This document shows positions 1,453 through 23,362 of a stretch of 23,526 nt of DNA, one piece after another (within the stretch, counting starts at the first letter, position 1; each line of letters begins with the position of its first letter). Made by a program: the position numbers and the translations under genes. The DNA is from a virus. Below the pieces are notes generated by a model that searched no databases, had not been told where the DNA came from, and saw only the letters and a program-made list of their open reading frames with translations. The stretch is taken from positions 1-23,526 of the IMG/VR virus record IMGVR_UViG_3300033144_000895; one strand, 5' to 3'.

Positions 1453-2016
1453 TCAGTTACTCCTGTGTTTGATGCATATGATCATAGCGATCCTGTCAAT
1501 ATCTGAGTTGTTCTCAACCCAGTGCAAGTTCGAGTTGTCGAACCAGAAAACCTCACCCTCTTCAGGTGCGATCACGCCATCATTAAAAGCAAAAATGGCG
1601 CCTTCAGCGTTCTGTATCGGCACGTAATATTTATCGTAGAACTCAGCATGCCAGCCCGAGTCTCTGTGTGGCTGAATCTTTCCGCCCGGTGGTAGTTTGG
1701 TTATAAGTATACCTCCTAATCTCTCGCCATCAACCGCATCGATCACATCAAACAAAGGCTTTTGTATCTCTGGTAATTTGTAGTACGCCGGGTACCAGAT
1801 AGACTCATGCTCATCAACAATTGTAGAGAAGTCTCCAGACTCAACGAACGGCTTTACGTCATTGAAGCGGATCCAGATATCTTTCATCTCAGTATGAGGG
1901 GATCCTTCCACTCCACGGTACGGGTACTCACCAAACAGATGATCGTTTTTATGGAGCGCACTTTTCAATGCGTCCACGTTAACCTTTAGATCAAGCTGTT
2001 TGTGCGTGACAGGCAT
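1453..2016 (-). CDS. Aspartyl/asparaginyl beta-hydroxylase-like 2OG-Fe(II) oxygenase (187 aa)
   Basis: This family (Asp_Arg_Hydrox, PF05118) hydroxylates Asp/Asn or related residues using Fe(II), O2 and 2-oxoglutarate. The sequence shows LPPGGKIQPHRDSGWHAEFY, with H117 and D119 as probable iron ligands. Later, NSNLHWVENNSDIDRIAMII gives distal H165 and R175, the probable 2-oxoglutarate-binding Arg, ten residues apart as in AspH. The core is complete. The N-terminal ~95 residues are an add-on helical/strand region (WYPAYYKLPE and others). The substrate is unknown; free amino acid, peptide or virion protein are all possible. The ATG has an AGAGGAAG ribosome site within the end of the sulfotransferase gene, and the two genes overlap, so they probably act as a pair. 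Confidence 0.86.
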   Translation of the reverse strand: MPVTHKQLDLKVNVDALKSALHKNDHLFGEYPYRGVEGSPHTEMKDIWIRFNDVKPFVESGDFSTIVDEHESIWYPAYYKLPEIQKPLFDVIDAVDGERLGGILITKLPPGGKIQPHRDSGWHAEFYDKYYVPIQNAEGAIFAFNDGVIAPEEGEVFWFDNSNLHWVENNSDIDRIAMIICIKHRSN

Positions 2017-2462
2017 TTGCGTACTTCCTCTATCATGTAATCGTTGTTCAGTATCTGGTCTTTCATTTTCATATAGCGGGCAACAGGGAACTCTGCATTA
2101 ATGCAGTAGCGCCAGATCTCCTCGATGCGTTCATCGATGTCATTAAAATCGACATGCAGCGCGCCATGCTCGTTCTTTAATCCTTGCTGCGCCTCATCAA
2201 GAAAAGTAAGATCAACGTCTCCAAAAATTCCATGCAGTGACTCCACTACTTCTTTTATGTCTCGATGTATTACCACCTTGCGATGGTTCTCAACAAAATT
2301 CCTTACCTGCAAATAACATGTCGTGCTGTCGCCAGAATAATCTGACTCCATGAACTCCGAGTAGTCAGGATAATAAAACAACCCGTCGTGCATGCAGCCT
2401 AAGAATTTCGACAACCAATACGTTCTGCTTCTTGGCAACGCCAACACAAAAAACTTACTCAC
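1986..2462 (-). CDS. Sulfotransferase-like protein (158 aa)
   Basis: Sulfotransferases move a sulfate group from PAPS to a hydroxyl or amine. Near the N-terminus, FFVLALPRSRTYWLSKFL fits the 5'-phosphosulfate-binding loop (PRSxTxWL, residues 10-17). VVIHRDIKEVVESLHGIF (63-80) fits the 3'-phosphate-binding motif with R67 and S74. Most sulfotransferases are longer (about 250 residues or more), so this is a compact or minimal form. The acceptor cannot be inferred. A P-loop-like nucleotide kinase is the main alternative, but the loop lacks the GxxGxGK[ST] pattern. The start is GTG at 2462, needed to include the binding loop, and overlaps the preceding stop (GTGA). It overlaps the hydroxylase gene by 31 bases. 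Confidence 0.72.
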   Translation of the reverse strand: MSKFFVLALPRSRTYWLSKFLGCMHDGLFYYPDYSEFMESDYSGDSTTCYLQVRNFVENHRKVVIHRDIKEVVESLHGIFGDVDLTFLDEAQQGLKNEHGALHVDFNDIDERIEEIWRYCINAEFPVARYMKMKDQILNNDYMIEEVRKCLSRTNSLI

Positions 2463-2674: not shown

Positions 2675-4406
2675 AAGCCTTAAGCTCCCGTATCGATGTT
2701 GCCAACACGACATCCCTCACAGGGTACTGTCCTGATATTTCAATCTCGTACTGGTTATATCTTTCAACTATTGGAACCCGGAACGGAGACACGCTACTCA
2801 CCACCTGTTCAACCAACAGCTCACCGTCACCAAAAATCTTCAGCACGTATGATGACACTGTTGGCACAATAGGTAGCAGCCATAGACAGTCACCATTAAT
2901 CGGGTACTCGTTGATCACGTTCCCGTTGATCGAACTACATAGATCTCCAGACGCAATGAGTGCCGCGTTCAGAATCGTTAGTGCGTCACGCTCAGCCTGT
3001 ATCTCGTCGGTTTCTTCCTGTGTTATCTCAGCATCGTAGTCAGCGTTAAGTTTGCATGACGTCATCGCAATAAGCTGTGGCATCAGGAACGACTTCGATC
3101 TCCATGTATAATTTAGACGGCTTCCGCCAGCATTGAATTCTTTTATGCTGGTTGTTAGCGCCGTCTCGTCATAGATGGCCATGTAAAGTTTGTCGCCCTC
3201 ATCGTCAGACCATACCGCGTCAGCATCAATATCAAGAAAGACCGGGCCTGACTCTGGGTCAATAAGAAGGCCTTGCTTAAGCGCAGTAAAAAAGATGACA
3301 TAGTTTTCATCAACACGTTCGGCGTGGCTGGCTGTGGGTGTAAGTGCCTGCCACTCTTCACGAGTGTAGTGATCTTTTGTTACCAGCTCTGTTCCGTTAT
3401 CACCAACATAAAAGACGCCGTCAGGACAAGCATAAGCAACGCCTCTATTGAGATTAACTATGCTCCGCTTGGAGACGCACGCCTGCCTGACCGGAAGCTT
3501 GGCCATCGACATAGACTCTGGTGTGATTCCAGTAATTGTGTATGGGTTTGATTTGGTGGTGACAACTAGCGTGCTACCAAAAGATCCGAGGCCCACGACA
3601 TCTACGGGAACGGTAAAGGAATACTTATCTGGGTATGCGTAAGGAATATATGGCTCGCTGAAATAAACTTTGTTGTCAACGAACCCTGCGAAGATTCCGT
3701 TGGCCATCTCAGTCAGGCCGATCAATCCTGCTGGTGGAAAATCCCAATCTTCAGTTACGAGTGACTCACCAAGAGCTTCCGTTAGAATTGAATCGTTGTA
3801 CTGTGGTGAACTTACGTTCCACTTATTTATTGGAACGTAATCGCCGGCTGGGGCAGCATCAAGAGTTGTGAGATTAATGCTCTCCACATCAAAGTCGCAC
3901 GCAACAATATTTGATACCGGGCTTGGTGCGCTCTCTTCACCCCAGTCATTAACGAACGTATAAACGTATGCGGTATCGACAGGGGTTACCGGCGCTCCAG
4001 AAACAAGCGTTGCGGTCGGCGCGCCTGTAGGTGCAGGCACCCCAAGAATGTAAGAGTTCTCTGGATAAATATTATCGCCACCCTCATCAACCAAGGCGTT
4101 ATTGGTCACGCGAGGAACGTCTGTGCCTGTATAGTAATGTCGATCAGTTGCATCATCAGCAAGCTGACTCTTAACGATGTCTACATCCTGAGTGAACTGA
4201 AGCCACTCGCCGCCCGGCATTTGGTAGATGGTTTTTATTTCACCGGCAAGCGCAAGGTCAGCCTCGTCACGATTACTTCTCCATGAGCGAAGTGCGCCGC
4301 CATCAAGCCTGCAGTTTTTTGCGACCTGCGATTGGTGTGATTTTAGAAAGACAGGATCCAGCTTCGGAGCTATCCCTGAAAATCCATGTAGTCTTACAAT
4401 TGACAT
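2661..4406 (-). CDS. Tail nozzle / DNA-stabilisation-type protein (581 aa)
   Basis: It opens MSIVRLHGFSGIAPKLDPVF and continues with QVAKNCRLDGGALRSWRS. This 'G..P..dp..L....a..a.Nc.ld.G.l...r' start is typical of phage tail proteins of the P22 gp10 / nozzle type. The middle shows repeated strand motifs of a beta-propeller-like fold: YVYTFVNDWGEESAPSPVS is the standard 'Y.yt.v..wG.EsaPs..s' element, and GIFAGFVDNKVYFSEPYIPY and AYACPDGVFYVGDN follow. The C-terminal ~120 residues form an extra domain. Such proteins form the distal tail tube and hold the packaged DNA in place. The Shine-Dalgarno lies within TAAAGGTAATCG at the stop of the upstream fibre gene. Confidence 0.85.
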   Translation of the reverse strand: MSIVRLHGFSGIAPKLDPVFLKSHQSQVAKNCRLDGGALRSWRSNRDEADLALAGEIKTIYQMPGGEWLQFTQDVDIVKSQLADDATDRHYYTGTDVPRVTNNALVDEGGDNIYPENSYILGVPAPTGAPTATLVSGAPVTPVDTAYVYTFVNDWGEESAPSPVSNIVACDFDVESINLTTLDAAPAGDYVPINKWNVSSPQYNDSILTEALGESLVTEDWDFPPAGLIGLTEMANGIFAGFVDNKVYFSEPYIPYAYPDKYSFTVPVDVVGLGSFGSTLVVTTKSNPYTITGITPESMSMAKLPVRQACVSKRSIVNLNRGVAYACPDGVFYVGDNGTELVTKDHYTREEWQALTPTASHAERVDENYVIFFTALKQGLLIDPESGPVFLDIDADAVWSDDEGDKLYMAIYDETALTTSIKEFNAGGSRLNYTWRSKSFLMPQLIAMTSCKLNADYDAEITQEETDEIQAERDALTILNAALIASGDLCSSINGNVINEYPINGDCLWLLPIVPTVSSYVLKIFGDGELLVEQVVSSVSPFRVPIVERYNQYEIEISGQYPVRDVVLATSIRELKAYAAS

Positions 4407-4415
4407 CGATTACCT

Positions 4416-5750
4416 TTACCAGAAAATATAACAAACACCATCGCCGCCAGCGCCACCGATTCTTCTGGCTCCAGTAAAACTGTTTGCACCACCACCCCCA
4501 CCGCCACCGTTCACGCCATCTTCTGCATCAGTACTGACGGTTCCTCGCCCTCCTGATCCTCCAACACCAAACACCCCGCACGACTGACCGAAGTTACCGA
4601 GATCATAACCGTACCCATTGAATACTGCGCCAGCGTCGGGCCAATAAGAGTCAGGGCCTTGAATTCCTCCTGTGGCAATAACCGGGGCATTCTTCGCCCA
4701 TATTCCAGCGCCAGAAAACACGTTGTATGCCGAGCTGTTTTCATCATCAAGCTCGTAGGTGTCAGGAGTAAGAACTGTGACCTTGAAATATCTGTCATTT
4801 ATTTCTGTCATACCACCAACCCCGCTAACATAAATTATGTCGCCTGTTGTTAGGTCGTGCGCTATGTCAGAAATGACGCAAGGGTTCGCATTACTCGCTG
4901 CATCAACTGTACCTGCTGTTGCGCCAGAGCTATCCATAAACGTCGAGTCAGCGCCATCTGCTGACGCTAATCCACCAGCGCCAAGCGTGATTGGAATAAT
5001 TGCGCCGGGGACAACATTCATTACGAACGTCTGAATATTTCCGCTATCACCGCCCATAGATTTAGTGCTTTCATCGCTTCCTGTGTTGCCATTTCCGCCT
5101 CCACCACCACCACCAGCGATAGCCACTGTTATTTCTGTTACTCCGCCCGGGACTGTGAACGGGTGCGAGCCGGCCCCAGTGTAAAGCTGCTGCACCGAAT
5201 CAACTGTCGCTAATGCGCCAGCGTCAGAGATGGTTGCCATCAGCTGTGTGCCTGTGTGGTTACCTCGTGCGCGATGGTATGCGCTGTTGTTGCCTTCCAA
5301 CAACAAAGCGTTCGCCACGGTGGCTTGTAGGATTGCTGAGCCGTCGAGGGCGAGCAATGCCCCGGGTGTTGCTGATGCCGCAGCTTCAAGCCCATCAACC
5401 TGATCGGCGTTCGTGTTCAGAATAACGATACCGTCGCCCTGAAGGATCTGCTCAAGGATGGCCTGCGTTACACGAATATCGATCGAGTCACCAGCCAGCC
5501 ATGATAAGGCTGTCGTACTCTCTTCACCACGAGAAACGGTAAGCTCATCAGCGTTCGGCTGTGCCGAGCAGTAAACTATTTCTTTATCGCCTGCGGCGTT
5601 GGTTAACGTCGCAGCAAATCTTTGTCCTGCTGCCGGGCTTGGGAATAATGTTCCCTCGCCCGTTGCAAGGAAGATGGCCGTGTCGGTATCGTTGATACCA
5701 GCCAGCAGTGTTGAGACTGCATTGTTTCTAAATAGAAATGTGTCGGCCAC
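4416..5750 (-). CDS. Tail fibre with glycine-rich tip interrupted by an FCCH-like domain (444 aa)
   Basis: The start codon is GTG at 5750, chosen because the protein then begins MADTFLFRNNAVSTLLAGIN, a common fibre opening, with GAGGATAAGAAG upstream. Residues 1-110 form the N-terminal attachment domain, and NHTGTQ at 164-169 is a typical fibre shaft motif. From about 186 a glycine-rich domain begins (FTVPGGVTEITVAIAGGGGG) and ends GGAGGDGVCYIFW. It resembles glycine-rich receptor-binding tips of phage fibres. Residues ~282-351 interrupt it with a segment like the FCCH domain found in phage proteins (HDLTTGDIIYVSGVGGMTEI, then NDRYFKVTVLTPDTYELDD). The gene is probably a second, shorter adhesin alongside the giant fibre. 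Confidence 0.85.
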   Translation of the reverse strand: MADTFLFRNNAVSTLLAGINDTDTAIFLATGEGTLFPSPAAGQRFAATLTNAAGDKEIVYCSAQPNADELTVSRGEESTTALSWLAGDSIDIRVTQAILEQILQGDGIVILNTNADQVDGLEAAASATPGALLALDGSAILQATVANALLLEGNNSAYHRARGNHTGTQLMATISDAGALATVDSVQQLYTGAGSHPFTVPGGVTEITVAIAGGGGGGGNGNTGSDESTKSMGGDSGNIQTFVMNVVPGAIIPITLGAGGLASADGADSTFMDSSGATAGTVDAASNANPCVISDIAHDLTTGDIIYVSGVGGMTEINDRYFKVTVLTPDTYELDDENSSAYNVFSGAGIWAKNAPVIATGGIQGPDSYWPDAGAVFNGYGYDLGNFGQSCGVFGVGGSGGRGTVSTDAEDGVNGGGGGGGANSFTGARRIGGAGGDGVCYIFW

Positions 5751-5777
5751 CTTCTTATCCTCGCGTCAGGTTACTGG

Positions 5778-6149
5778 TTACTTGCTATCGCCAGAGGTCT
5801 TCTCGACCACTTTTGGTTTTGGCGGATCGATCAAGTCGTATGCTGCCTTGATGGCTGCCGGGCCATACAGTGGAAGCATAAGCTCTTTGATCATTGCTGC
5901 ATCATCAGAAATAATATCAATGTTACCGTCGGCAGATTCTTTTTCGGTAGCGTTATAAATTTCCTGAGACAAGATCGCGCGATGAATTTTTTTCTCAGCA
6001 GAGAGATCTTTATCTTTCTCCTGCATAGCGTTCAACGCAACCATAGCCATATGACCAAGCATCATGTCGGCCCCACCCTCTTTTTCGCCGGGCTTCAACA
6101 TTGGCTTGCCGTCATATCCGTTAATGAACTTCTTAAAATTAATCTTCAT
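5778..6149 (-). CDS. Small helical phage protein, possible assembly factor (123 aa)
   Basis: It opens MKINFKKFINGYDGKPM. A helix with LGHMAMVALNAMQEKDKDLS follows, then AEKKIHRAILSQEIYNATEK, an acidic turn, DDAAMIKELMLPLYGPAAIK, and a Pro/Lys tail. The layout of N-terminal strand plus DG[KE]P[ML], then two helices with a Y/[IL]Y-containing repeat, then 'IK.L....YGP...' matches a very widespread family of small phage proteins that is annotated hypothetical. Several members sit among tail genes. The Shine-Dalgarno AGGAGAAGG is strong. A role in virion assembly is an inference from context. Confidence 0.74.
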   Translation of the reverse strand: MKINFKKFINGYDGKPMLKPGEKEGGADMMLGHMAMVALNAMQEKDKDLSAEKKIHRAILSQEIYNATEKESADGNIDIISDDAAMIKELMLPLYGPAAIKAAYDLIDPPKPKVVEKTSGDSK

Positions 6150-6182
6150 TACCTTCTCCTCTACTCTCTCGTTTATAAATTA

Positions 6183-6527
6183 TTAAACAGCTGCGTCAAA
6201 GTCAGCCAAAGTTTTCAGCTCCGTGTTTAGCAGGGCTTCCATAGCCATAGGCTCATTCACCTGATAGCTGCGTGTATCGAACGGACTATCACCAGAATCC
6301 AGAGCAGCCTGTGACTCAAAGAAATCCACCAGAACAGTGATGGTAGCTGGACTTTCTGGAACAGCAGGAACTGCTGGTACTGCCGGGGTTTCGCCGACTG
6401 CAGGGATCTCAGGGATCTCAGCAATAGCTGCAGCAAAGTCGTGGTTAAACTGAATCCGTTGGATTCGTGATACTGGGTCAGTCGATACGACGCCAGTTGA
6501 TCGTGCTTTATTTACGTTCATTGACAT
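6183..6527 (-). CDS. Hypothetical protein with Pro-Ala-Val linker (114 aa)
   Basis: The stop codon of the fibre gene is part of the Shine-Dalgarno (TAAGGAG) for this gene. Residues 1-37 form a strand-rich head (RIQRIQFNHDFAAAIAEI). Residues 38-61 are a low-complexity linker of repeated P-A-V/P-E units (ETPAVPAVPAVPESPA). Residues 62-114 look like a second small domain (TITVLVDFFESQAAL, then YQVNEPMAMEALLNTELKTL). It is cytoplasmic-like, with no signal peptide. Genes of this size just after a fibre gene sometimes encode fibre chaperones or attachment factors, but no known chaperone family is recognisable here. Confidence 0.72.
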   Translation of the reverse strand: MSMNVNKARSTGVVSTDPVSRIQRIQFNHDFAAAIAEIPEIPAVGETPAVPAVPAVPESPATITVLVDFFESQAALDSGDSPFDTRSYQVNEPMAMEALLNTELKTLADFDAAV

Positions 6528-6538
6528 AATTGTTCTCC

Positions 6539-9500
6539 TTAAGCTAATGCAACGCTGATCCAGCTGCCGTCATAGACATATAGATTGTTGTTGGTTGTGT
6601 CGAAAATAAGGGCCACCCGGCCAGTCTTTGTAGTCGGCGTTCCTGTCGGAACTCCAGCACAAGTTGGAATATACAGGAATCCATCGGTCGCTGTCGTGGC
6701 CAACGCAGCACTACCTATAGACACGTTGGCATTGTTATCTATCTGGAGAGCTTCCTTCCATGTGATCGCGGTATCGATGGTGCCAGAGGCCGCCACCTTA
6801 AAGTCAATAATGCCTGCCGCCATATCAATAATGCTTGCAGCCGCCGTTGCGGCATAGGTATCGACACCGCTGCCGTTGCGATACATGCTCTGACACAGCT
6901 CAAGGCCAGTAGACAGTGCCGCAATAGCAGACTCACCACCAAGCTGGATGACCGTTCTTGATCCATGCCATGCAGGATTGAATGACGTATCAAACTTAAA
7001 GACACCACCAGTCTCCATCTCAAGCAGCGTAACCCACGTTATGGCGGTATCCACCGTTCCAGCCTGAGCATACTCAAAGGCTATAGATGGCGTAGTTCCG
7101 TCTCCAAAAGTTAATCTGGCTGGCCATGCTGTGCCGCTAGAATATTTCCATGACCCATCATCATAGGCAAACCTTGCTATTGATGAGTCTGATGACGCCA
7201 TTGCAAAGTTATCACCGACCTGTAGTGATGCGGCGGTGTATCCAAGCAGGCTGGTTGTGCCAACGCCGACCTCTGTTCCGGCTGCTTTCAACCTTACGGT
7301 GGATCCGTCAACAAGCTCGAAATCACCACTGGCGGCATTCTTCAAGTACCAGCTGGCTACAGAGTTTCCTAGCCTGACATCAACTGCATTAGCGGCATTG
7401 TCAAGAATATAAAGCCGGTTGCCATAAATAGTAAGGTCGGTGTCGTAATATGTGGTGTTACCCATTGTCCAATCATGGGTATCTCTGCCAAACGACATAG
7501 CCTCAACGAAAGTAACGGCGTTCCCTATCGTTCCACTTGCTGCGTACTGAGAGTAAAACATCTTGGCTGAGGCGTGAGGAGTCCATTTAGCTGCGTAGCC
7601 AGTCTTTTGATATTTGTACCCGCTAGAATAATAATAATTGTTGCCAACATAGCCGCCATTCGAGGCGTTGAAATTACCCTCAAGAACAAGGCCTGCGCCA
7701 ACGTAGAATCCAAAGATAGTACTGGCACTAGCCCACGCTGGAGGCTCTGCAAACAAACTAACAGAGCCAGCGCCATCAAGCACTATTCCTTCTTTGTTGG
7801 CTTCACCTAATTTTAAGTAGTTATTCTCATAGTACATTCCAGAGTTAGTACTGGATGTGAACGAGTACGCTGGTGCAGCTTGCGTACCACTGGCAGCCTT
7901 AGAAACTTGCAGCAAGAGAAGGTCTTTATGAACCTGAGTATCACCATCAGCCTGCAGTGTTAATGCTGAAGTCCAGCTTATAGAAGTATCAATAGTGCCG
8001 CTGGAGGCTGTCTTGAAGTAATGGCCACCGAGCTGCTGCTCATATTTGCTGGCCACTTTGGTTGATTTATATTTCCAGTTTGATACATCACGATAAGAGT
8101 TATCGGTCATGCCGATAATTTCAAGACCGGCAGAACTATCGTAATAAAAGGCGCCTTCGTCGCCAATCTCTATAGCAACAAAGTCAGTCTCCCACGCTTC
8201 ATGATCGCTGGTTCCAACACCAATATTGCCAGTGGTGTAGTTGATGTTACTACCACTGGTTGTCCATGGGCTAGATGCTAACCCGGTACCACCAATCTGG
8301 AAGTCAGTACCTGCATCATCTGTAAACCAAAGAGTATTTGCTACATCGTTCTTAACCCAGATCTGGCCATAACCCGCAGCATCAGTCTCAGCAGCTGCAA
8401 CTTCTGCGATCTTGATTCCACCAGCTGAGCCGATTCTCATGCGCTCAACACCGCCCGTTATTAGGGAAATATTATTTGAGGCGAATCTGCCGATACCGGT
8501 GTCAGCATCAGTTCTGCTAGGAAGAAATACAGGATTAGTGCCACTAGAATCCTCATTTTTTAATTGAGGAGCATTAGAAGCAATTCCTAATATTCCTGCA
8601 GCCATTATTCTCCACTGACTAGCTCCTGCAATACTTATATGTAATTCATCATCGTTCTTCTCAGAGAAGCCTGTATCACCATCACCAAATGCAAGCGTTG
8701 GAGTAGCCACCTCATTAACCTGCGGGATTATTGTATGCCCACCGTTGTCGATGGTTAGGGCGGTTTTCCATGAGATGGCGGCGTCGGCAGTACCTGATGC
8801 AGCTACATAAAAATAATGGAATCCTCCAGATTGCCGGTACGAAGTGGCTTGATCGGTGTCTTGATACCTCCACCCTGTGCTAGAGTCGTAGGCGTTCTGC
8901 GATAGATGAATAACTCCATTTATTCCGGGGCTGGTAGTGGCAGAAATAGACCCGTTACTTCCAAGCTCAAGCACAGAAAGGGTAGCGTCCCAGCTCTCTA
9001 ATCCATTGCTAGACCCTATCCCAACATTCTGGGCAGCATCAATCCTGATGGCCTCAGTGGCGAATGTGGCTACAACTAATACGTCATCACTTAGTTCATA
9101 AAACCCGGTATCTCCATCACCGAAAGATAAAGTAGGGGTTGCGGAATCATTCTCTAAAGGCAAATGCAATTTGCTAGTTGGGACTGTGATTCCAATGCCA
9201 ACATTACCAGTGCTGTAATAAATATCAGAGCCGGTAGTAACCCATGGGCTACCGCCAGCTACTCCTCCGCCAGCAACCTCGAAGTCAACGCCGGCATCGT
9301 CGGTGAACATTAGAGTATTGGCTGTGTCGCTCCTTACCCATACCTGACCGTAGGAGGCGGTGTTTGTAATTGCTGCAACGGACTCTTTTATCCTAAATAT
9401 TCCCAGAGGAAGCGAAACTTCTCCAGAAGGATCGAATGACATTTGTGCGTTAAACGATGGGTTCCTTATTGAAAAAACACCACCGGGCTGATTCCATAGA

Positions 9501-12198: not shown

Positions 12199-12854
12199 GC
12201 TAGTGGCCTCATGGCTACGTGTTTAGGCCCACGTGTGTGGCTGCGGGTTGCGGCATTTCGGATGTCTTGAATGCCTTTATTAAAATCCATCAGCTCATCG
12301 GCTGCAGCTTTAGGGTCATACCACGACCGGCCCTTCATGTTTAATAGTTTTGCCTTTGCGCCACACGCGATCGTTTCCAGATACTGATCGAAGAACCACT
12401 TCGGAGCCTCGAATGAAGCCTGAGTCGGCTTCACAAATATTCCCAGATAACAAGCGAACTGCTGGTTAGGGATTATCGCCAGTCGGATCGTGATCGGTGA
12501 TGCCATGTAAACAAATTTCGGTGTGCCTTCGAGTGCGCGCCATCCCTTATTGGATGATGCGTCAAGCTCGTCCTCTGACACGACGTCGAGATCGAACCGT
12601 TCATTACTTGCTTCCAACACAAGGTAACCCCAGCTGACCTGACACAGCTGCTCATAGTCATCCATCAGGATCTCGTAGGTTGGTGTGCCGTCGGAGGTGT
12701 AAAATGTTGGTAGCTCTTTGCGCCATATCGATGTTGACTGGCAGATCTCAATGATCGCATCACGGATCTTGTCTTCAGCGACAATGGGCGGGCAGCCGGA
12801 AACTTCAGGCAGCACCTTGAACAAGTAAGAATCGTACCCGACCATGTGTGTCAT
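12195..12854 (-). CDS. Putative neck/tail connector protein (219 aa)
   Basis: The opening MTHMVGYDSYLFKVLPEVSG leads into VAEDKIRDAIIEICQSTSIW, a pattern I recognise in small connector proteins that follow the adaptor gene in many phages (helix with I-x-[DE]-A-x-I-x-[FI]-C then an aromatic). A beta-rich centre follows, then WFFDQYLETIACGAKAKLLN and a basic C-terminus (THTRGPKHVAMRPLA would be part of the final coil). No enzymatic motif is present. Its position between the DUF6682-like adaptor and the BppU-like gene, with ATGA overlaps on both sides, supports a structural role at the neck or tail hub. This is an inference from family resemblance and context. Confidence 0.7.
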   Translation of the reverse strand: MTHMVGYDSYLFKVLPEVSGCPPIVAEDKIRDAIIEICQSTSIWRKELPTFYTSDGTPTYEILMDDYEQLCQVSWGYLVLEASNERFDLDVVSEDELDASSNKGWRALEGTPKFVYMASPITIRLAIIPNQQFACYLGIFVKPTQASFEAPKWFFDQYLETIACGAKAKLLNMKGRSWYDPKAAADELMDFNKGIQDIRNAATRSHTRGPKHVAMRPLA

Positions 12855-13522
12855 TTAGGTGCATCCCTTTTTATCTCTGCGCTCGGGGTGTAGGCCTTGA
12901 TGGTTTTAGTATCAACGCCAAGCAATCCTGAGAACGCCTTGAAGTGGAACTGGGCCAGTGATCGACTCTCCATGGAGTCAGTCTCTTTGGAGTACGCCAT
13001 GTGCAACATCCAGTGACGGATCATGATCTCGAACACAGGATCAAGCGCAATGGCGTCGTTATCTACGTCGGTTACTATCTCAGGACTCTGTGCGATCTTA
13101 GCCTCGACAAGAACCGCAATCGTCGCATGAACGGGCGGGTAAACATAGAAAGCCTTCGGGGTCTTCTCGTCATAGACGAAGTTGCGAACGACGGTCTTGC
13201 CCGTCTCACTATGCCACTTGGGTCGGTAAGTATTGAGTGTAGGCTCATCGATGGCCCATATTGGTTTGCCGGGCGTGTTGCCGTCGGCTCCCATGTTGCG
13301 AACGATATCAAGCAGTCTGCGGTGTGCTGGCAGTAGAGCCTGCTTGGTACCGGGAATTAGTGTTAGGTTTATAATATCTGAAGATGCGTCAGGGCGAAGC
13401 TCTGAGATCAGCATCTGTGCAGAGTTCAGGTAATCAGTTAAATTCCCCTTGCTCCATATGCGGAACAAGGGGTCTGTTAACTCCTGAGCAATATCATCAA
13501 CAATGGTTATTGCTTGCGTCAT
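12851..13522 (-). CDS. Head-to-tail adaptor protein (DUF6682-like)
   Basis: A 223-aa protein matching the phage adaptor pattern. An N-terminal helix pair carries W-x-x-x-x-L-x-x-x-L-N (RIWSKGNLTDYLNSAQMLIS) and ends in ELRPDAS. A strand region with LIPGTKQALLPAHRRLLDIV follows. Then come a W/Y/P-rich receptor-like segment (NTYRPKWHSE and AFYVYPPV) and a C-terminal helical part with the family's typical MLHMAYSKETDSMESRSLAQ followed by FHFKAFSGLLG. Such proteins form the ring connecting portal to tail in podoviruses and siphoviruses. The gene starts shortly after the 254-aa gene and overlaps the next by four bases (ATGA). Confidence 0.85.
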   Translation of the reverse strand: MTQAITIVDDIAQELTDPLFRIWSKGNLTDYLNSAQMLISELRPDASSDIINLTLIPGTKQALLPAHRRLLDIVRNMGADGNTPGKPIWAIDEPTLNTYRPKWHSETGKTVVRNFVYDEKTPKAFYVYPPVHATIAVLVEAKIAQSPEIVTDVDNDAIALDPVFEIMIRHWMLHMAYSKETDSMESRSLAQFHFKAFSGLLGVDTKTIKAYTPSAEIKRDAPK

Positions 13523-16716: not shown

Positions 16717-17217
16717 CTAAACCTCCGCTAATATGATGATCAGCGCAAGCTCATCATCCTCTCTCACCAGTGACACCTTGAATTCCTGTGCTGCCACGAT
16801 CTCTTTTTTGGCCCGAATCTTCAGGGCTTTGATCGCCTGTAGCTTCGTTACGCCAAGCTCTTTCTTAACCGCCTCTATTTTCGACGCCAGCTCCGACGGA
16901 GGAAGCATCTCCAGCGCCTGCTTAGGCGTCGGAACGGGTAGCCCTGATACCAGATAAGGCTCACCCTCGACCACAATCTCTGTGGCTTTACTCAGGATCT
17001 CCTCTACTTCCTCTGGCTTAATATCCGCCAACCTTAGCGTCGGCTCGCCTACCTTCGACCGGATAAAGATCCGCCGGGGCATTACCTCAAACTGTTTCTT
17101 CGTACCACCCAGCCCGGGCTTATCCTCGTCAGGAGGAACAACGATGTACGCTTTGTATGGCCCAAGCCCTGCGGTGCATAGCAGGTTGACCGGGCCAAGC
17201 CCTCTCGTGGCCAACAT
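16717..17217 (-). CDS. Hypothetical phage protein with TxGLGP repeats (166 aa)
   Basis: The N-terminus has two copies of a short motif, TRGLGP at residues 4-9 and TAGLGP at 15-20. I have the impression that this style of opening is common in small phage proteins encoded next to the family of the preceding 424-aa gene. A basic linker and a strand (PRRIFIRSK) follow. Two charged helices come next (around KPEEVEEILSKATEIV and PSELASKIEAVKKELG). The C-terminal strand region ends DDELALIIILAEV. The protein is probably a compact alpha/beta accessory or assembly factor. There is no signal peptide or membrane segment. The start codon overlaps the preceding stop (TAATG), and the stop TAG abuts the ATG of the next gene. 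Confidence 0.72.
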   Translation of the reverse strand: MLATRGLGPVNLLCTAGLGPYKAYIVVPPDEDKPGLGGTKKQFEVMPRRIFIRSKVGEPTLRLADIKPEEVEEILSKATEIVVEGEPYLVSGLPVPTPKQALEMLPPSELASKIEAVKKELGVTKLQAIKALKIRAKKEIVAAQEFKVSLVREDDELALIIILAEV

Positions 17218-18491
17218 TATTCTAGTGCTTCTCTGCTGTTCACGGCGTTGCCTGCGTATGGAGTGGTCTGGGCAATATTCTCCCAGATGTTTGCGGTGAA
17301 CAATACCGTCACCTTATCGTCATCAAATACGGTCATGATTCCGGTCACTGGATCTGTCTCGGTATAGTTTTTCAGGATCTTCCTCGAAAGGTTCAGCTGG
17401 CCGCCAGCCGTATTGACTGTCGTGTGTCCACGGACATCGTGCGCCCATGTCTCAGCATTTTCAGTCTCATCGATGATCACTGTGCCGGCTGATTGATCGT
17501 CAGGCGGTAGGCTGTAGTTGCCCCGCAGATGGATCGTGCCGCCGACGCAGGTCGCGTCCAGATGAAGTTGGCCGCCATACATTTCAATCGTATGGGTGCC
17601 GCCAGTCATCCCCTTGATGCCCAGTGACCTGTGCCAGTCGCTGACCTGTAGCACGTTCGACCCGGTGGTAATGTTGGCGTAGCCACCCCCAGATTTATTT
17701 GAGTAGCACTCTATGAGATGAGCGGCGCCATTAATTGTAATGTCACCAACAATAGCGCATTTTTCCACAAACCCAGCAAACTCAAAAGTTGGAAGTAGCA
17801 CCCCCTGCTGGACGATAACTGATCCGGTGGACATCCCTTCCATCTGGCACTGGAAAAACTTTGCGCCCGTCAATATGCGGCTACTGGTATCTACGGTTGG
17901 CAGTCCAACACCAACCACCGTAAGGTTCTTGAGATCCCTGTCAAGAAGGATGTCGCTCAGCAGATGGATATGCCTGATGTTTTTTGCCTCAGCGTAGTCG
18001 ATTGCCGTAGGCGTATCATTAAACGGGGTTTCCTGAGAGCCATCCCCTAGCGCCGCCAGAGAAGTATCAATCCACACGAACTGCTGGATATGAGACAGCT
18101 TCTCGTCCAGAGGGGCCACTGACTGAGTGATCGGCTGCAGGCCATTAATCAACACCCGATAGGTGCCTATTGTCGGAATGAGTATGGGGATGGCTGAGTC
18201 TTTGGGAACAAGCTGCCCGATAAAAGTATAGGTGCCATCATTTTCAGCAGGACGAATTCGCCAGCCTTCAACATTATTCATGAATGTATAGCGCCCCTGA
18301 TCAATGGAGCCAACAACTAGCGGGTTACCGCCGTCAGGAAAGAATGCTGGAATATACTTAGCGTTGTCTCCGGTCTTTACCCACTCCTTCCATGGCTCAT
18401 ACAGATCGTCGATGACATCAACGGTCAGCACACCATCGACGACAACATCGAGGGTGATTATCAAATTGTCGCCATCGAATGAGGTAGGCAT
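17217..18491 (-). CDS. Putative virion fibre/baseplate-type protein (424 aa)
   Basis: The N-terminal ~120 residues match a pattern I recognise from many phage structural proteins. It opens SFDG..LIITL, followed by DDLYEPWKEWVKTGDNAKY, a GGNPLVVG turn, WRIRP, then FIGQLVPKDS and IPTIGTYRVLINGLQPITQ. The family is usually annotated only as a structural or tail-fibre protein. After about residue 150 there are repeated short strands (SDILLDRDLKNLTVVGVGLP, then GDITINGAAHLIECYSN) compatible with a small beta-helix. The last ~50 residues, near TETDPVTGIMTVFDDD, look like a separate C-terminal domain. No enzyme motif was found. One-base TAATG overlaps with both neighbours suggest that the 531-, 424- and 166-aa proteins are translated in a coupled series. 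Specific placement on the virion cannot be read from sequence. Confidence 0.78.
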   Translation of the reverse strand: MPTSFDGDNLIITLDVVVDGVLTVDVIDDLYEPWKEWVKTGDNAKYIPAFFPDGGNPLVVGSIDQGRYTFMNNVEGWRIRPAENDGTYTFIGQLVPKDSAIPILIPTIGTYRVLINGLQPITQSVAPLDEKLSHIQQFVWIDTSLAALGDGSQETPFNDTPTAIDYAEAKNIRHIHLLSDILLDRDLKNLTVVGVGLPTVDTSSRILTGAKFFQCQMEGMSTGSVIVQQGVLLPTFEFAGFVEKCAIVGDITINGAAHLIECYSNKSGGGYANITTGSNVLQVSDWHRSLGIKGMTGGTHTIEMYGGQLHLDATCVGGTIHLRGNYSLPPDDQSAGTVIIDETENAETWAHDVRGHTTVNTAGGQLNLSRKILKNYTETDPVTGIMTVFDDDKVTVLFTANIWENIAQTTPYAGNAVNSREALE

Positions 18492-22714: not shown

Positions 22715-22993
22715 TTAACCGTGTCGTTTCTTTTCATGTTTTTTAATTGATTTGTTTATTAGTGGCTGGCAATCGGTTGGTCGCTTGCTTACCTCTTTAA
22801 TCGCCTGAGCTGGTGGTGCAGGTCTTGGCGTGACCGGAACAACAACATCATCAGGATAAATATTTCCGACTAAATCATTAACTGTGTAGGTGCCTGTCGT
22901 TAACAGCAACACCAATAACAAATACACTGCCGGCTTGTTCTCCATGAACGGTCGCACAGCGTTTTCCATTATGACCTTAAACCTGTCCTTCAT
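22715..22993 (-). CDS. Single-pass membrane protein, function unknown
   Basis: A 92-aa protein. A basic N-terminus (K2, R4, K6, R14, K20) precedes one hydrophobic segment at about residues 21-37 (PAVYLLLVLLLTTGTY). A Pro-rich linker around VPVTPRPAPPAQA and a basic tail (KKHEKKRHG) follow. Basic residues before the membrane segment predict N-in/C-out topology, which would put the Pro-rich part and the single Cys in the periplasm. Size and topology could fit a holin, an inner-membrane spanin-like protein or a membrane moron. There is no long periplasmic coiled coil typical of Rz and no adjacent endolysin, so I do not call it a lysis gene. Its ATG overlaps the stop of the secreted protein upstream, so the two are probably made together. 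Confidence 0.7.
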   Translation of the reverse strand: MKDRFKVIMENAVRPFMENKPAVYLLLVLLLTTGTYTVNDLVGNIYPDDVVVPVTPRPAPPAQAIKEVSKRPTDCQPLINKSIKKHEKKRHG

Positions 22994-23328
22994 CAGAAAT
23001 GAAAGTTCAGTCCGGCGCCAATGCCGACCAAACCATCCTCCTCTGCAATAACGCCATTAAAAAGAAATGCGCCGGAGCGCAATCCAAGTCCGAACGCTTT
23101 ACCTGCAGCATCATCAACACTGCTTATACCAACGCATCCCTGTAGAGACTTTGCTCCCCAGTCATGCTTGCATTGTGTTGCAGCCAGTCCTAATGCAGCG
23201 CCACCAGTCTTTCCATTCAGCGAGTTGCTGTAGTAGTTATTTGTGGTTGTAACGCTGCTATTAGGGCCGCCAGCAAAAACTAAACCCGAGTACATCAACA
23301 CCAATAAAATTAAAAGTTTCTTCCCCAT
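22993..23328 (-). CDS. Small secreted protein with outer-membrane-like C-terminus
   Basis: A 111-aa protein. Residues 1-19 form a clear Sec signal peptide: MGKK, then a Leu-rich core, then VFA as the likely cleavage site before GGPN. The mature part begins with an Asn/Thr/Tyr-rich stretch (VTTTNNYYSNS), carries two cysteines (C53, C65) that could pair in the periplasm, and becomes Gly-rich with alternating hydrophobic residues. It ends in VGIGAGLNFHF. A terminal Phe preceded by alternating hydrophobic residues is the usual insertion signal of outer-membrane beta-barrels and of YadA-type anchors, but about 92 mature residues is too short for a monomeric barrel. A trimeric anchor or a phage protein altering the cell surface (for example against superinfection) is an inference. 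It overlaps the next gene by one base (TGATG), which suggests translational coupling. Confidence 0.75.
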   Translation of the reverse strand: MGKKLLILLVLMYSGLVFAGGPNSSVTTTNNYYSNSLNGKTGGAALGLAATQCKHDWGAKSLQGCVGISSVDDAAGKAFGLGLRSGAFLFNGVIAEEDGLVGIGAGLNFHF

Positions 23329-23362
23329 GTCCTTAGCCTCTGAGTTCCTCTCTCCTTGGCCC

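Follow-up and report, generated by a model that had tools for sequence, protein, structure and literature searches.

A probable minimal YadA-type anchor gene overlaps a gene for a single-pass membrane protein in environmental phages

A 23.5-kb virus record (the window, i.e. the whole stretch of 23,526 nucleotides that was analysed) carries tailed-phage genes, including the capsid gene, on its minus strand, and has two small overlapping genes at 22715..23328. Gene A very probably encodes a minimal YadA-type outer-membrane anchor, and gene B encodes a single-pass protein predicted to lie in the inner membrane. We tentatively read the two as a late envelope-spanning pair whose most likely role is that of a spanin-like lysis accessory, with a barrel replacing the lipoprotein. 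The observation behind the initial annotation, which had proposed such a pair, is confirmed, and its interpretation is partly supported. The features of the two genes are as follows.

22993..23328, minus strand: gene A, 111-aa protein, very probably a minimal YadA-type outer-membrane anchor (ORF, model, structural matches)
22715..22993, minus strand: gene B, 92-aa protein, predicted single-pass inner-membrane protein (ORF, hydropathy, charge)
23330..23334, minus strand: AAGGA very near the ATG of A, a possible ribosome-binding sequence (by eye)
23272..23328, minus strand: signal-peptide-like segment of A, residues 1-19, with presumed cleavage after A19 (sequence; AF2 helix 3-17)
23200..23271, minus strand: N-terminal tail of mature A, residues 20-43, containing TTNNYYSNS (modelled at low confidence)
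23176..23199, minus strand: helix of A, residues 44-51, counterpart of the helix inside YadA/Hia anchors (model, structural match)
22996..23142, minus strand: four beta strands of A, residues 63-71, 74-85, 88-97, and 100-109, with the C-terminal Phe last (model)
22993..22995, minus strand: TGA of A, its last base being the A of B's ATG (TGATG; sequence)
22871..22933, minus strand: transmembrane (TM) segment of B, approximately residues 21-41, hydrophobic core 21-38 (hydropathy)
22718..22870, minus strand: C-terminal tail of B, ca. 51-54 residues, Pro-rich then basic, with one Cys (residue 75; sequence)

The N-terminus of A, MGKKLLILLVLMYSGLVFA, is signal-peptide-like by eye, and cleavage after A19 would leave the 92-residue mature protein ending in GIGAGLNFHF that the initial annotation had described. 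At the A/B junction, TTC-TGATG, base 22993 is common to stop and start, which agrees with the overlap noted there. By eye, AAGGA precedes A and no obvious ribosome-binding sequence precedes B, so the translation of B probably depends on that of A. The two genes are thus probably translationally coupled.

A structure model of the single A chain, built from four relatives, has a pLDDT of 65 overall, with 68-81 across residues 41-110 and 63-68 in the last blocks. It consists of one N-terminal helix followed by four antiparallel strands, which is the fold of a trimeric-autotransporter anchor. Hydrophobic residues alternate with small ones, and the C-terminal Phe, the aromatic end of the barrel, is present in all four A proteins. 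The model was compared with solved structures by VIA-align, and the best five matches are the anchors of Hia, AtaA, and YadA (2gr8, 3emo, 2gr7, 9vnj, and 2lme with Z of 10.3, 9.8, 9.4, 9.1, and 8.8, respectively); the next row is an unrelated chain with a Z of 5.3. The first four rows of the Foldseek PDB search are Hia or AtaA anchors with a probability of 1.00 each. In the viral structure library, 9 of the top 15 rows carry adhesin or YadA-like names, and the other six are nameless. Hence, the model and both structural comparisons bear out the earlier suggestion that A is too small for a normal barrel and resembles a trimeric anchor.

Database searches with the window A sequence alone were silent. 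Among the pair-bearing viral records, only the A of relative L007 matches the Pfam family YadA_anchor (PF03895), with 32.8 bits against a cut-off of 22.7, and the A proteins of the window, L011, and L003 are unmatched even at an E-value of 10. In profile-profile comparison with four named-phage anchors, profile A4, which contains L007, gave an E-value of 2.3e-4, yet a probability of 44, and profile A1 (window and L003) gave no match (probability 1.2). In the PDB sequence search, profile A4 found nothing, the window A found only unrelated proteins, and the L007 A had YadA 2lme as its sole match (E 0.12). NCBIfam gave no match for A or B. On the strength of the fold matches and the PF03895 match of L007, we class A, with high confidence, among the YadA-type anchors, as a minimal one. 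By analogy with this family, A would form a homotrimer. We rejected A as a full YadA-type adhesin, as the secreted passenger (head and stalk) is missing and A is an anchor-only protein. Its signal-like start also speaks against a virion protein.

The type Vc anchors (PF03895) of YadA, Hia, and AtaA have, like A, a helix and four strands per chain and a C-terminal aromatic residue. Unlike them, A is nearly devoid of a passenger or stalk, measures 111 aa in all, and is followed by a coupled inner-membrane gene. YadA-type proteins are already known in phages, i.e. in phiEco32, N4-like, and Yersinia phages. Seven named phages, picked from the viral fold search or from papers, were tested with PF03895, and matches were found in five: phiEco32 (phi32_119), FSL SP-076, Erwinia S6, and Yersinia phiR1-RT (g139, 122 aa) and TG1 (90 aa). 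The records of P-HM2 and My1, which according to passages of PMC3728262 carry a yadA homologue, have no PF03895 match. Like A, phiR1-RT g139 has a signal-like segment and little beyond the anchor, so the window is not the only phage sequence with a small anchor. When the next or nearby ORFs of the five phage YadA genes were translated, no overlapping single-TM partner was seen; SP-076 has two TM genes upstream of its YadA-type gene.

Passages of two papers describe phage PF03895 proteins as adhesin or virulence genes (PMC10654107, PMC3728262), and EibA-type phage genes match the L007 A weakly. A could accordingly be a shortened adhesin-like coat protein that helps the infected host by surface modification or lysogenic conversion, with B as an accessory. 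We consider this improbable, as only ca. 24 residues lie between the signal segment and the helix of A, compared with open frames no shorter than 293 aa for all 33 YadA-anchor matches in 369 Gammaproteobacteria. Phage YadA-type anchors may instead serve the phage's own cycle, and we found no report of such an anchor with a phage lysis role in the literature searched.

Each of the four B proteins has one hydrophobic core, the C-side flank of which is less positive than the N-side flank. All four are therefore predicted to be N-in/C-out, with periplasmic tails of 44-78 residues. The hydropathy and charge of the window B and the segment VPVTPRPAPP in its tail agree with the single-pass protein with a Pro-rich periplasmic tail that had been predicted. 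A tail Cys is present in the B proteins of the window and L007. These two proteins are similar over 42 residues (E 3e-6, one comparison), and the comparisons window-L011, window-L003, and L007-L003 gave nothing useful. The structure model of B is poor (pLDDT 59, pTM 0.21) and was left unused.

Gene A occurs in the window and L002, in L007, in L003, and in L011, which are all from environmental phages and represent at least three lineages. L002 is an IMG/VR contig of the window's own phage, identical down to window position 18379 and reaching 7.8 kb further upstream. In 4/4 records B directly follows A with a 1-nt overlap of the form TTC-T(G/A)ATG, being TGATG in the window, L003, and L007 and TAATG in L011; the pair is thus conserved together, as the initial annotation required of its reading. 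In single comparisons, the window A is 36% identical to the L007 A over 97 columns (E 1e-17) and 35% identical to the L011 A (E 6e-7). The recurrence with the same overlap in three further records, together with these identities, indicates that the pair is more than chance, and we rejected A and B as chance ORFs in view of the four records and the fold match. The recurrence also bears on the possibility that A is active alone as an outer-membrane permeabiliser or plug. B would then have nothing to do with A, being for instance a small holin or antiholin, and the overlap would be a matter of gene packing. Such overlaps are common in the window (4 of 23 neighbouring gene pairs, A/B counted), and the similarity of B is weak beyond window and L007; but a single-TM gene stands after A with the same overlap in every record and in at least three lineages, which makes this explanation rather unlikely.

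The family is known from these four members only. By tblastn against 50,697 phage records, the A proteins of the window, L003, and L011 and the B of the window were unmatched, and the L007 A had no match in plasmids. A pattern scan of IMG/VR returned 22 stretches, of which only the two loci already known were family members, and a pattern scan of bacterial genomes returned 42 stretches with no family member; being pattern-based, these collection scans miss divergent members. Profile A4 found nothing in 7 bacterial genomes. It gave weak matches (E 0.0008-0.0075) in 369 Gammaproteobacteria (two), 385 Alphaproteobacteria (two), and 399 genomes from the order to which a Burkholderiaceae MAG belongs (four). 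Among them, L080 is a partial match whose frame is cut at the contig end and has no signal-like start, L081 was rejected as a mini anchor because it is a 364-aa adhesin-like ORF, and the other six were rejected from the match table as long frames or frames with stops.

We then inspected the gene neighbourhood of the pair. L007 has, in this order, a tail fibre/spike-like gene, a Glyco_hydro_108 (GH108) endolysin (4130-4681), a TM protein, a holin-like protein (5052-5651), a 100-aa TM protein, A (5959-6285), and B. In L003, the order is a 1099-aa protein (fibre-like by eye), an endolysin (phrog_894, 5734-6261), a holin-like protein (6258-6830), a 79-aa TM protein, a 193-aa exported-looking protein, A (7986-8411), B, and a tail-collar-like gene. 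In L002, an Amidase_2 endolysin (631-1089) is followed by small membrane proteins, a terminase, a 94-aa TM protein, the portal, an 88-aa protein, A (at 8001), B, and an 813-aa protein; the small membrane proteins include a 161-aa holin-like one (by eye; PHROG match without stated function). Hence, the pair follows endolysin and holin-like genes within ca. 1.2 kb in two of three lineages, and the expectation that relatives would have it beside endolysin genes holds for these two, whereas in the window lineage it lies 6 kb downstream of the lysis genes. On the L011 contig, only 3.6 kb of sequence precedes A. The holin-like protein of L003 and L007 is common to nine named Vibrio or Oceanospirillum phages. 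As none of the nine has a PF03895 match, the pair is an optional rather than fixed part of the holin cassette.

Two-component spanins (lambda Rz/Rz1, T4 PseT.3/PseT.2) resemble A/B in combining an outer-membrane protein with an N-in/C-out inner-membrane protein, encoded by adjoining or overlapping genes that are often in the lysis region. They differ in that the outer partner of A/B is a barrel and not a lipoprotein, the outer gene comes first, and the inner tail is short. Specifically, by charge and hydropathy all four B proteins have the N-terminal TM segment, N-in/C-out orientation, and periplasmic tail of an i-spanin, but the tail is 44-78 aa compared with 130 aa in lambda Rz and 121 aa in T7 18.5. 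A tail of this length would span the periplasm only as a nearly extended chain or with the membranes drawn together. Outside the TM and signal segments, all four pairs carry one Cys or more; passages of a spanin survey give a Cys in either component in 507 of 528 two-component spanins (PMC6139136).

An o-spanin is an outer-membrane lipoprotein with a lipobox, and A is not. Lipoproteins were sought in two scans, the first limited to the first 32 residues and the second reaching residue 55 and controlled with the known lipoproteins lambda Rz1 and T7 18.7, both of which were found. In the second scan, none of the pair-bearing records had a lipoprotein candidate on the late strand, and the window had no candidate at all; A and B have no lipobox, which places the pair outside the spanin family. 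In the first scan, G002, G003, and G004 had each shown a single candidate ORF, and the second flagged the same G004 ORF, on the opposite strand, and a different G003 ORF of 49 aa, likewise on the opposite strand, at ca. 28.0 kb of the contig and just past the pair. The two ORFs of the second scan are unlikely to be o-spanins, although we say this less firmly of the G003 one. Just past A/B of L007, on the opposite strand (6668-6817, minus strand), a 49-aa ORF has a lipobox-like segment and a tail of 13 residues. The nine holin-sharing phages have neither a late-strand o-spanin lipoprotein within 4 kb nor a YadA anchor, and the two ORFs flagged in them by the second scan are both on the opposite strand.

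The anatomy of the pair, i.e. a barrel, an inner-membrane tail, coupled translation, and the late strand, fits a device linking both membranes. A would be exported, inserted via the BAM pathway, and trimerised to a 12-strand barrel with four strands per chain, its helices and short N-terminal tails lying in or near the pore. B would sit in the inner membrane with its N-terminus in and C-terminus out, holding its 44-78-residue tail in the periplasm. After the action of holin and endolysin, the tail of B might meet A on its periplasmic side, and together they might then disrupt or join both membranes in the manner of a two-component spanin with a trimeric-barrel outer partner. We favour lysis because spanins are an established two-membrane phage device and because lysis genes neighbour the pair in two of three lineages. 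Several observations count against it: the 6-kb distance in the window lineage, the short tails, and the missing lipobox. The missing o-spanin lipoprotein is also nothing special, as the nine pair-less holin relatives show none either, and similarity between B sequences appears detectable only for window and L007. In addition, the 94-aa or 100-aa TM protein could be the real inner-membrane spanin. These two (L002 4682-4966, and L007 5655-5957 just before A) have an N-terminal TM segment and a charged helical tail and show no BLASTP similarity to each other.

Both lysis genes and tail-fibre genes surround the pair, and its position is variable. L002 and L011 are sister phages with portals 78% identical, 94-aa proteins 90% identical, and 88-aa proteins 87.5% identical; their A proteins are only 35% identical, their B proteins are unmatched, and the next gene has no meaningful match. 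This steep divergence places A and B on the border of a variable module. Such variability relative to the portal fits lysis-gene swapping and receptor-linked variation alike, and the L011 pattern is a further point against the lysis reading. It suits superinfection exclusion or receptor masking, in which A would hide or occupy a receptor, or stop progeny from binding debris, and B would block DNA entry or hold A. This is the strongest rival, because the pair stands at a variable site next to tail genes and because of the Cor cassette of T1, and we rank it below lysis as a less probable but serious explanation. According to passages of PMC13164509, the T1 locus has an outer-membrane and a membrane-associated protein beside the exclusion lipoprotein Cor, downstream of the tail fibres. 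The tail fibre/spike-like gene upstream of the pair in L007 and the tail-collar-like gene downstream in L003 also speak for exclusion, as do the YadA genes of the five named phages, which lie near tRNA, dUTPase, or small genes and away from lysis genes. The Cor/Llp cassette of T1-like phages resembles A/B in setting an outer-membrane and a membrane-associated protein side by side near tail fibres. It differs, by its published description, in its receptor-binding outer-membrane lipoprotein: no Cor/Llp-like lipoprotein was seen beside the pair on the same strand, and the lipobox is absent from A and B themselves. Moreover, A/B are in the late, structural orientation and not in an early block, and PADLOC found nothing above chance for either protein.

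If the lysis reading holds, a minimal trimeric YadA-type anchor in place of the lipoprotein, coupled to a short single-pass inner-membrane partner, might even be a barrel spanin. The final stage of phage lysis in Gram-negative hosts would then have a third architecture, one that could account for some of the phages in which no spanin has been found, although we consider this less likely than not. Passages of the spanin survey give 91 of 677 phages in which no spanin was found (PMC6139136), and a coupled barrel and inner-membrane protein near endolysin and holin-like genes is a testable candidate for phages without a spanin.

Other genes of the window were also observed. By its match to PF24175 (E 2.2e-20), the gene at 13522..12851 (minus strand) encodes an SU10-type adaptor protein, which is a structural marker of the phage type. 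The gene at 2016..1453 (minus strand) has an aspartyl/asparaginyl beta-hydroxylase domain (PF05118, E 1.9e-10), and beside it 2462..1986 encodes a small protein that is P-loop sulfotransferase-like by eye, with no Pfam match. L002 and the window are identical over 5,148 bases, after which 127 of the last 219 bases differ (L002 12951-13169; window positions up to 18378). The divergence falls within the gene 18491..17217 and reflects either an artefact of the contig end or the exchange of a tail-type gene.
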